In this document: in pieces, positions 54,796 to 58,207 of the stretch
How the letters are laid out: the number at the start of each line of letters is the position of its first letter
Position numbering within the stretch: the stretch's first letter is position 1
DNA from: Pirellulales bacterium
Lineage (GTDB): Bacteria; Planctomycetota; Planctomycetia; Pirellulales; UBA1268
NCBI GenBank assembly: GCA_016779265.1
Contig: JADHNY010000001.1
Location: 62,001 to 126,000 of the forward strand
Length of the DNA: 64,000 bases
Direction of reading: 5' to 3'
Notes under the pieces: model-generated
The model's database searches: none
The model's input: the letters and a program-made list of their open reading frames with translations, nothing else
Told to the model about the DNA's origin: nothing
Program-made: the position numbers and the translations under genes

Positions 54796-54867
54796 GGCTC
54801 CGTAGCCAAGTGGCTAAGGCAGCGGATTGCAAATCCGCCATCGTCGGTTCGACTCCGACCGGAGCCT
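54796..54867 (+). tRNA. tRNA-Cys (GCA anticodon)
   Basis: The 72-base cloverleaf has acceptor GGCTCCG pairing with CGGAGCC, a D-arm, anticodon stem GCGGA/TCCGC around TTGCAAA (anticodon GCA) and T-arm GTCGG-TTCGACT-CCGAC. The discriminator base is T, matching the U73 identity element of cysteine tRNAs. CCA is not encoded. A T-rich run follows directly. Confidence 0.96.
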
Positions 54868-54903
54868 CTTTTTTCTTTTCTGGGGCGGTGTCTTTTTCCG
54901 CCC
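54868..54903 (+). terminator. Possible terminator after tRNA-Cys
   Basis: A pyrimidine run (CTCTTTTTTCTTTTC) follows the tRNA directly, then GGGCGG (54883-54888) can pair with CCGCCC (54898-54903). The hairpin comes after the T run rather than before it, so it does not follow the classic intrinsic terminator order. Confidence 0.3.
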
Positions 54904-55579: not shown

Positions 55580-55681
55580 GCCGTGAACGGTCGGCTTGCG
55601 CAATGCCAATAGTCTGCGGGTAGCATGAGCCACCGTTTCGTGGTCTTTGCTGTTGGCCCATTGTCCTGCTCGAGGCTCCTG

Positions 55682-58207
55682 ATGCGCGTGTCCCGCTTCC
55701 TGAATCGCCCGGTGTTGTGTGGTGTGGTCCTGTTGGCCTGCGGCCTAGTGGCGTGCTCCGCCTCGGCCCACGACGGCGAACACGAGCATGCGCACGAGCA
55801 CGCTGCGGCTGCTCCAGCCCTGTCGCCAGCGATGGTGCTCCCAGAGATGGCGGGGCCAGCTCCGTGGACCACGAAGCCCGTCTTTGACGACCCCGAGCGG
55901 TTTCAGATCGCGATCATGACCGACCGCACCGGTGGCCATCGCCCCGGCATCTGGATGGACGCGGTCAGCAAGCTCAACATGCTCAGGCCGAGCTTTGTGA
56001 TGTCGGTCGGTGACCTGATCGAGGGCTACACCGACGATCGGACTCGGGCGCTCGCCGAGTGGGATGAGTTCAACGGTTTCATCGACCAGCTCGACATGAA
56101 GTTCTTCTTCGTGGCGGGCAACCACGATGTGACCAACCCGATGCTCCAGGAACTCTGGCGGGAGAAGTTTGGAGCCGGCTGGTATTCCTTCGACTACAAA
56201 CGCGTGCACTTTCTCTGCCTGCTCAGCGAAGACCCGCTGCAGCGGATCGGTGAGGAGCAGCTGGCCTTCATTCGTGATGACTTGGCTGCCCATGCCGATG
56301 CACGTCACACGCTGGTGTTTCTGCACAAGCCGCTCTGGAACATCGCCGAACGTGAGCTGGCCGCCGGCAATGAAGACAGCACCAACTGGAAAAAGGTCGA
56401 GGCGATGCTTGCGGACCGGCCCCACACGGTGTTTGCCGGCCATGTGCACCACTACGTGCAGTACAGCCGCAACGGCGGTCGCAGTTACTACTCGCTCGCC
56501 ACCACCGGCGGCTCGTCGCAGCTGCGGGGTGTGCCCTACGGTGAGTTTGACCATGTGACCTGGCTGACGATGGAGAAAGACGGACCGCAGGTAGTGAACC
56601 TCAAACTCGATGGGATTCTGCCGCCAGACGTGGTCACGGAGGAAGAGTCGCAGCGGTTTCGGGCGTTCCTCTCACAGACCGTGGTGGAGGTTGCGCCGAT
56701 CTTGGTCGACGACGCCAACGGCTTTCTCGAGGGTGACGTGCATGTGCGGATGAGCAACAGCTTCAGCGAGCCAGTTGAGTTTGCAGGTGACTTCAACGGG
56801 CTCCCGCTGCGTGGACTATCGGTCGATCCGGAACGGGTGCGGGTGGCTGTTGAGCCAGGCAGTGAGATGACCCAGTCGGTGCGGGTTCGCTTTGGAGAGA
56901 CGATCGACTTCGCGCGGCTCTCAGGTGCCGTGCTGCGGGCCACGCTGCGGACGCCTGGTGCGGAAGGCCTCTCCGCTGAGCGGCTGATTCCGGTGATCAT
57001 CGACCGCCGGCATGTCTGCGGTCCGCTCGCAGGCAAAGTGAATCTGGCCGCCCCGAGTTTTCCGGCAGCGAAAGTCGGTGGTGACACCTATGCCACCGAT
57101 GCCAACGCCCTTGTGCTTGGTGAGGCGAGCAGCTGGAACGGCCCAGAAGACGGCTCGTTTGTGTTCACCACAGGCCACACGAGCGAATCTTTTGTAATCG
57201 ATGTCCGCGTGCGTGATGAGCGGATCGAAGACGGCGATGCTATCGAGTTCTTTATCGATCCGCGGCCAGCGAATGAGCGACGCGGCGACACCCGGTTCGG
57301 CCGCCGCACCGTGCGAGTGTTGGCAACGCCGCCAGACGCTCAGGGCATCTGTGGGGTCGACGCGGTGTTCACGCGACGGCCTTTGGAGAACTGCTCGGCT
57401 CAAGGTGTTCGTGTTGAGGGTGGCTACACCTTGCGGATCGCACTGCCGCTTGAGCCGTTTCGTCGTGGTGAGACGCCGGTGGACGACTTTCTACTCGCCG
57501 GCATGCTCCACGATGTTGACGATCCGAGCGGCCCGGCTGCTGAGATCCTCTGGCGAGGTAGCCGTTCAATCCGTGATCGCAACAGTGGGTATGGGACGTT
57601 TGTGTGGGAAGCAGTTGGTGACAAGTGGGAAAACGACATCTCAGCCTTTGAGGCGAGTGACCGCGAGTCGCCGCCGCCGACCGGGGCCGTGCTGTTTGTC
57701 GGCTCATCGAGCATTCGGCTCTGGAAACTGCCACAGTGGCTGCCCGATCTGACCGCGATCAACCGAGGCTTTGGTGGCTCGCAGATCGCGGACGTCAATC
57801 GCCATCTGAAGCGGATCGTGCTCCCCTACAAGCCGTCGCAGATCGTGTTCTATGCTGGCGACAACGATATCAATGCCAAGAAGACACCGGCCCGTGTGAC
57901 CGACGACTTTAATGCCTTTGTGACTGCGGTCCGCAGAGATCTTCCAGAGACTCGCATTATCTTTGTGGCGATCAAGCCGAGTCTGAAACGCTGGGGCCAG
58001 TTTGCTACCCAGCAGCAGGCCAACGACGCGATCCGTGAGATCTGTGAAGCGAGCCCGCAGCTGACCTACCTCGACGTGGTAACGCCGATGCTCGGTGACA
58101 ATGGTGAGCCAAAGCCAGAGCTGTTTGCCGACGATGGGCTGCACCTCAACGACGCCGGCTATCGGCTCTGGACCGACCTACTCAAGAAACACCTTGCCGC
58201 GAAGTGA
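55682..58207 (+). CDS. Fusion lipoprotein: calcineurin-like phosphoesterase, CBM9-like domain, SGNH hydrolase
   Basis: 841 residues from ATG 55682 (GAGG upstream; a further ATG at 55625 adds 19 residues). The signal peptide ends at lipobox LVAC (Cys25; LLAC at Cys20 is an alternative), then a short His-rich spacer HDGEHEHAHEH. Domain 1 (about 60-320) has metallophosphoesterase motifs GDLIEG, GNHD and GHVHH, but the first DxH reads TDRT. Domain 2 (about 490-645) resembles CBM9-like carbohydrate-binding domains (DAIEFFIDPRP). Domain 3 (about 665-841) is a SGNH hydrolase: VGSSSIRLW, RGFGGSQI, GDNDIN and DGLHLN. The likely substrates are extracellular phosphorylated or acylated polymers; this is inferred. 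Confidence 0.85.
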   Translation: MRVSRFLNRPVLCGVVLLACGLVACSASAHDGEHEHAHEHAAAAPALSPAMVLPEMAGPAPWTTKPVFDDPERFQIAIMTDRTGGHRPGIWMDAVSKLNMLRPSFVMSVGDLIEGYTDDRTRALAEWDEFNGFIDQLDMKFFFVAGNHDVTNPMLQELWREKFGAGWYSFDYKRVHFLCLLSEDPLQRIGEEQLAFIRDDLAAHADARHTLVFLHKPLWNIAERELAAGNEDSTNWKKVEAMLADRPHTVFAGHVHHYVQYSRNGGRSYYSLATTGGSSQLRGVPYGEFDHVTWLTMEKDGPQVVNLKLDGILPPDVVTEEESQRFRAFLSQTVVEVAPILVDDANGFLEGDVHVRMSNSFSEPVEFAGDFNGLPLRGLSVDPERVRVAVEPGSEMTQSVRVRFGETIDFARLSGAVLRATLRTPGAEGLSAERLIPVIIDRRHVCGPLAGKVNLAAPSFPAAKVGGDTYATDANALVLGEASSWNGPEDGSFVFTTGHTSESFVIDVRVRDERIEDGDAIEFFIDPRPANERRGDTRFGRRTVRVLATPPDAQGICGVDAVFTRRPLENCSAQGVRVEGGYTLRIALPLEPFRRGETPVDDFLLAGMLHDVDDPSGPAAEILWRGSRSIRDRNSGYGTFVWEAVGDKWENDISAFEASDRESPPPTGAVLFVGSSSIRLWKLPQWLPDLTAINRGFGGSQIADVNRHLKRIVLPYKPSQIVFYAGDNDINAKKTPARVTDDFNAFVTAVRRDLPETRIIFVAIKPSLKRWGQFATQQQANDAIREICEASPQLTYLDVVTPMLGDNGEPKPELFADDGLHLNDAGYRLWTDLLKKHLAAK

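Follow-up and report, generated by a model that had tools for sequence, protein, structure and literature searches.

In a 64,000-nucleotide stretch of DNA from a Pirellulales bacterium (hereafter the window), a single open reading frame encodes both a calcineurin-like metallophosphoesterase (MPE) domain and an SGNH hydrolase domain. The two-hydrolase fusion proposed in an earlier note on this DNA is genuine: the domains share one frame in two genomes (G000, which contains the window, and G002) and are encoded by adjacent genes in a third (G003). Both the fused and the adjacent-split state thus occur within one genus of uncultured planctomycetes, and comparison of these loci indicates that the fused protein arose by the natural joining of two neighbouring genes. 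We think it somewhat probable that the product of this gene fusion is an exported phosphoesterase and O-deacylase on one chain that presumably acts on a glycan. Every part belongs to a known family, which limits the surprise, and the novelty of the combination is real but modest. The system is of interest because in sister genera the SGNH partner has also been joined to a phosphatase of another, unrelated type, because the planctomycete MPE subfamily carries a metal-site motif unlike the textbook one, and because it offers a testable pair: do a phosphatase and an O-deacylase act on one glycan?

The fused coding sequence (55682..58207, + strand) has 841 codons from the ATG at 55682, with its stop codon at 58205-58207; an in-frame ATG at 55625 is an alternative start that would give 860 codons. 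A homologous fused frame is present in G002 (L003/L035). Pfam detects Metallophos in the window protein (E 4e-8, residues 98-258, 34.3 bits versus a gathering score of 21.5), as well as Lipase_GDSL_2 (E 2e-21; 1.7e-21 for PF13472; residues 685-829) and Lipase_GDSL (E 1e-8), both above their gathering scores. The motifs GNHD, GHVHH, GSSSI, GFGGS, GDNDIN and DGLHLN that had been reported for this protein were all located. Of the three domains assigned originally, the MPE, CBM9-like and SGNH domains are retained, but the count is four, with a probable Ig-like domain that had been overlooked.

The protein begins with a signal peptide, recognised by eye (residues 1-29, ending ASA/H; 55682..55768, + strand), and export of the fused protein is very likely, judging by this N-terminus and those of its relatives. 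A lipobox-like LVAC (55745-55756, + strand) overlaps the signal peptide. This element, from which a lipoprotein had been proposed, occurs in the window, but the sister species G003 and the two next relatives (L045 and L046) do not have it; G002 lacks the N-terminus on its contig and is therefore uninformative. Among 34 informative N-termini, comprising those of relatives and of the window protein, a strict lipobox fits only 4, including the window protein itself. By comparison, a small residue followed by His occurs at the likely signal-peptidase-I end in 30 of the 34 (Ala-His in 22), and the window context ASA/HDGEHEH has the same arrangement. Because the closest relatives whose N-terminus is known do not have the lipobox, lipid anchoring of the fused protein appears doubtful; as a conserved trait of this family, in which the lipobox is rare, it is unsupported. 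The His-rich stretch at the mature N-terminus (HDGEHEHAHEH; 55769..55801, + strand, read from the sequence) is, as noted earlier, real and also common to the family, 22 of the 34 MPE-family N-termini having at least three His within 12 residues. In these it lies directly after the signal peptide, often as AHEGHEH... The stretch may bind metal.

The MPE domain (55862..56617, + strand) was delimited by PF00149 and family-conserved motifs, namely D81-x-T83, G-D111-x-x-E114, G-N147-H148-D, H215 and G-H254-x-H256. Blocks II-V of PF00149 (GD, GNH, H, GHxH) are all present. In the block scheme of calcineurin-like MPEs, block I is D-x-H, though some family members deviate; the window protein has D81-x-T83 instead. 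The TDRT sequence at this place had been taken as a sign that the metal site of the window protein may be altered. However, D-x-T is the norm of the subfamily, as all 35 rows, which represent 33 distinct proteins, carry it, 34 of them by pattern and one, L021, read separately. Likewise, among the 32 rows of a second alignment (A3) that cover block I, the last position is Thr in 31, Ser in 1 and His in none. Block I TD[RNH]TGGHRPG and block II GDL[IV]EG occur together in 34 of the 35 rows; the 32% relative L021 has GDRTGG and GDLING instead. In a 33-row alignment, D81, T83, D111, E114, N147, H148, H215, H254 and H256 show little or no variation, with Glu114 not conserved in three distant relatives (L088 and L090 of that alignment, and L021). 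A one-off loss of a metal-binding His is ruled out by the sharing of D-x-T across the whole subfamily. That D-x-T is a subfamily trait argues for a working site over a decayed one, and the "altered metal site" would be better described as a subfamily-wide variant.

Among solved structures, the MPE family profile matches purple acid phosphatases best (PDB 2qfp and 1kbp; 1.7e-9), and the match spans only profile positions 155-258, the C-terminal part of the domain. Purple acid phosphatases have no block-I His and carry a Tyr at the third position past the Asp of block II (G-D-x-x-Y). The window protein resembles them in lacking the His but differs in block II, where GDLIEG places a Glu at the position of the Tyr. 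The site could hold two metals, as in enzymes of the calcineurin/purple-acid-phosphatase type, with Thr in place of the usual block-I His throughout the subfamily. We hypothesise that Glu114, at the expected position of the Tyr, may take over as a compensating metal ligand. We know of no characterised calcineurin-like enzyme with D-x-T plus a compensating Glu. Two models, one of the whole protein (mean pLDDT 62.9) and one of the MPE domain (mean pLDDT 55.1), are both weak in the MPE domain and too poor for metal-site geometry. They were built on shallow alignments (11 and 4 rows) because a scan of viral contigs found no relatives. A Foldseek search with the second model gave no match at E<=0.001, and SbcD nucleases were among the best matches above that value.

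Between the MPE and CBM9-like domains, the model places beta-sandwich strands at residues ~333-442, with low to moderate pLDDT, and a profile search weakly matches designed Ig-type chains (profile positions 335-382). Together these suggest a probable Ig-like domain (56678..57010, + strand), a model-based assignment of low to moderate confidence. The CBM9-like domain that follows (57017..57607, + strand; approximate bounds) owes its assignment to the family and not to the window protein, in which Pfam detects no CBM9 even at E<=10. Of the 33 proteins in the family alignment, 19 match CBM9_1 (PF06452) at E<=0.1, the best at 9e-8; in the relative L036 the match covers 479-634 (1.7e-4, slightly below the gathering score). 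The relatives make the CBM9-like region described previously probable.

The SGNH domain (57620..58195, + strand) is identified by PF13472/PF00657, by structural matches and by alignment to 7pzg. Under the block definitions given in the accessible part of PMC9063846, this alignment locates the Ser of block I (Ser676), the Gly of block II (Gly699), the Asn of block III (Asn728) and the Asp-x-x-His of block V (Asp818 and His821). The catalytic Asp and His, singled out beforehand as decisive for the earlier reading, are intact. All five residues are identical in 48 of 48 aligned SGNH domains, which were selected by BLAST similarity to the window domain. The fold is also recovered, as model residues 651-840 have a pLDDT of 83-96 per ten-residue block and yield Foldseek matches with E values down to 1.3e-13. 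The top structural match is a putative streptococcal PAF enzyme, and sialate O-acetylesterase entries (target TM 0.82-0.86) and PAF-acetylhydrolases come next.

By sequence, the closest solved chains are those of the sialate O-acetylesterase of Phocaeicola vulgatus (7pzg and 6njc; 5.6e-12 and 6.8e-12). According to the accessible part of PMC9063846, this enzyme deacetylates mucin and pNP-acetate by using Ser52/His202/Asp199 and Gly75/Asn103, a triad and oxyanion residues that match the five SGNH positions of the window protein. The P. vulgatus sialate 9-O-acetylesterase (7pzg, 7pzh and 6njc) has the same fold and the same Ser/Gly/Asn/Asp/His set, but the identity of ~20-22% is too low for transfer of its substrate. 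It is described as an SGNH-fold dimer, and that part of the source reports no phosphoesterase fusion (PMC9063846). Removal of acyl groups from glycans by the SGNH half is favoured, indirectly, since the solved relatives include sialate O-acetylesterase and several fusion partners of the module are of glycan type.

The junction between the two halves (FVWE-AVG-DKW; 57599..57625, + strand) was defined by comparing G000 and G002 with G003 (L034), within a genus sample of four genomes (these three and G001). In the fused species it reads FVWEAVGDKWEND and FVWEAETDKWEDD. In G003, a metagenome bin with a coverage of 2.15 according to its contig name, the phosphoesterase ends at GYGTFVWEE-stop, and the SGNH gene starts 6 nt later with a signal peptide of its own (MRHPRFCRRWFPVIVSTALLGASSQVSLGLAAEP..., by eye) and reads through the SGNH domain. 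There, 40 codons that include the stop and the second signal peptide replace the 3 codons AVG of the fused form, such that the fused and split states differ by one block of 37 codons net. A same-looking RND-type gene (by eye) borders all three loci at their end. The G002 contig starts inside the fused gene, and G001 (74% complete) contains a weak SGNH match only.

A join made during assembly, or a frameshift, could in principle merge two genes; the draft assembly that contains the window has 190 contigs, and both halves of the protein occur separately elsewhere. However, the frame is unbroken across the junction, the same junction is present in the separately assembled G002, and the split form in G003 has adjacent genes and differs by 37 additional codons that include a stop and a signal peptide, and not by one base. 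An artefact, which the earlier note had raised as grounds for doubt, is contradicted by these data; we regard it as highly improbable and have rejected it.

Most relatives of the N-terminal half lack the SGNH domain. Across the first 640 residues, planctomycete proteins with the MPE-Ig-CBM9 arrangement (for example, L034, L036 and L004) are 45-79% identical among close relatives, and they have the same motifs as the window protein and mostly the same His-rich start, but they end after the CBM9-like domain whereas the window protein continues into SGNH. We scanned 296 genomes of the order, scoring the best three or fewer candidates per genome. In 37 genomes (G002 included) the arrangement is complete or nearly so, a count that omits partial rows (G090, G282:C366 and G093:C56) and relatives matching the first 400 residues only. 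It is fused to SGNH in 2 genomes, adjacent to it in 1, ends before any SGNH in 33 and runs off the contig in 1 (G132); with the genus set aside, the frame ends before SGNH in 33 of 34 genomes. Outside the genus, the DNA available around 35 distinct MPE loci contained no SGNH open reading frame; for 29 of these loci it included at least 1 kb downstream. Across 392 genomes of the phylum, no further fused row was recovered at E<=1e-60 among the best two candidates per genome. A scan of named genomes gave 11 loci, with both halves only in two sister records and one locus (L037) running off its contig. Among the literature matches listed (titles, abstract openings and open-licence texts), no description of an MPE-SGNH fusion was found.

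Gene trees of the genus (supports given as bootstrap/SH-aLRT) conflict over the history of the junction. The MPE tree pairs G000 with the split G003 (85/88), and the SGNH tree does likewise (93/82). One synthetase-family tree instead pairs the fused species G000 and G002, with supports of 91/89 when a wrong-frame row (L133) is included and 74/70 without this row and with fewer rows. A second synthetase-family tree pairs G000 with G003 (83/88), and the two families combined pair the fused species weakly (77/72). As a species marker, rpoB gave no match in G002 or G003. Because the gene trees conflict and their support is modest, they do not decide among one fusion, a fusion that was later split again, and two fusions.

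The SGNH family is fused to other partners in planctomycetes: HAD, Ceramidase_alk, Beta_helix, AXE1-like (acetylxylan-esterase-like), BNR_4 and Laminin_G_3 (lectin-like) domains. Ceramidase_alk (PF04734) is joined to SGNH in 6 of 6 frames scanned (L075-L080), all from one family of the order, Beta_helix is joined in 4 of 4, and there is one fusion each with AXE1-like, BNR_4 and Laminin_G_3; these composite frames were chosen by length and by eye, and the counts are not frequencies. In the beta-helix, AXE1-like, BNR_4 and Laminin_G_3 fusions (L069-L071 and L150-L153), SGNH lies after or before the partner, and in L074 the Laminin_G_3 domain is downstream of SGNH. Three long frames (L072, L073 and L023) have no clear partner by eye, and the frame of L081 is only 392 aa within the fetched DNA.

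Of 72 genomes from the window's family, 23 encode a HAD phosphatase and SGNH in one frame (~610-1100 aa), with the HAD identity (PF12710) established by Pfam on one such frame. The HAD-SGNH loci are L013, L014, L016, L019, L020, L026 and L083-L086. Additional to the 23 is G188:C27:38058-39919, where HAD-SGNH extends over two overlapping frames, possibly through a frameshift. Proteins such as L013, L014 and L083-L086 resemble the window protein in that a phosphatase-type domain precedes the same SGNH family in one chain, but they carry HAD where the window protein carries MPE, and their SGNH domains belong to a different branch. In the SGNH tree, the domains of the window's genus form one clade with the Laminin_G_3 fusion L074 (100/98), the sister of this clade is the AXE1-like fusion (91/85), and all ten HAD-SGNH rows are in a separate branch (97/89). 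This split rejects derivation of the window SGNH from the HAD-SGNH proteins of sister genera, and the separate branches indicate that MPE-SGNH and HAD-SGNH are separate phosphatase-SGNH joinings. None of the four genomes from the window's genus showed a HAD-SGNH fusion. At E<=1e-30, a HAD-SGNH query matches the window genome, G002 and G003 in the SGNH part only, whereas many other genomes of the family match it, and G001 has a stand-alone HAD relative; a search of the window genome for a HAD domain, run without a positive control, gave no match.

In the mechanism that we propose, the signal peptide would take the fused protein across the inner membrane, and the N-terminal half would function as a planctomycete MPE-Ig-CBM9 phosphoesterase while its CBM9-like domain holds a glycan. 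The SGNH domain would remove O-acyl groups, most likely O-acetyl, by means of its Ser-His-Asp triad. Most likely, phosphate and acetyl would thereby be stripped from an extracellular or envelope glycan, for breakdown or for phosphate recovery. The computations show the fusion, the domain identities, the intact SGNH residues and the family-wide MPE motif; from these we infer that both enzymes are active, that the acyl group is acetyl, that the substrate is a glycan and that one substrate serves both.

The fusion by itself says little about a shared substrate, because ceramidase-like and HAD domains are also found joined to the SGNH module, whose partners are thus not solely glycan-pointing. The range of partners cuts both ways, which makes it a live, if rather unlikely, alternative that SGNH is a mobile general esterase that joins many exported proteins, so that the two halves share export and not a substrate. 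Seven partner types, MPE included, would fit such behaviour, as would the separate signal peptides on the two halves in G003 and the lack of an SGNH gene beside the MPE genes seen elsewhere. Nevertheless, the junction and the downstream neighbour are conserved in the two fused species, both of which keep the SGNH catalytic residues, and the MPE motifs are kept in G000 and in the on-contig part of G002.

The substrate might also be a lipid. A lysophospholipase-like or PAF-acetylhydrolase-like SGNH domain could work with an MPE that cleaves a phosphodiester head group, and phosphate would be freed from lipids. The leading structural matches of the SGNH domain, with the putative PAF enzyme at the top, are compatible with this possibility, as are the ceramidase-like partners and a weak similarity of the MPE to 3',5'-cyclic-AMP phosphodiesterase (NCBIfam, 27 bits versus a cut-off of 225). 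However, the MPE family has a CBM9-like domain, the nearest solved SGNH chains by sequence are of sialate O-acetylesterase, and other partners of the module are of glycan type. We consider lipid scavenging unlikely. Also counting against a glycan, no polysaccharide-degradation gene was seen among the immediate neighbours of the fused gene.

A broader proposal builds on the glycan reading that we prefer. SGNH has been joined repeatedly to phosphatases of unrelated fold (MPE and HAD), and the resulting one-chain enzymes might act on a single envelope or exopolysaccharide glycan that carries both modifications, clearing its phosphate as well as its acyl groups. The MPE site would be built on D-x-T and a compensating Glu. 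We offer this as speculation and judge it quite unlikely in its full form.

The genes that neighbour the fused gene in the window appear by eye to encode 6-phosphogluconate dehydrogenase, glucose-6-phosphate dehydrogenase and an RND pump. A tRNA-Cys (gca) is located upstream of the locus in both G000 (window positions 54796-54868) and G003 (L034, 4768-4840).
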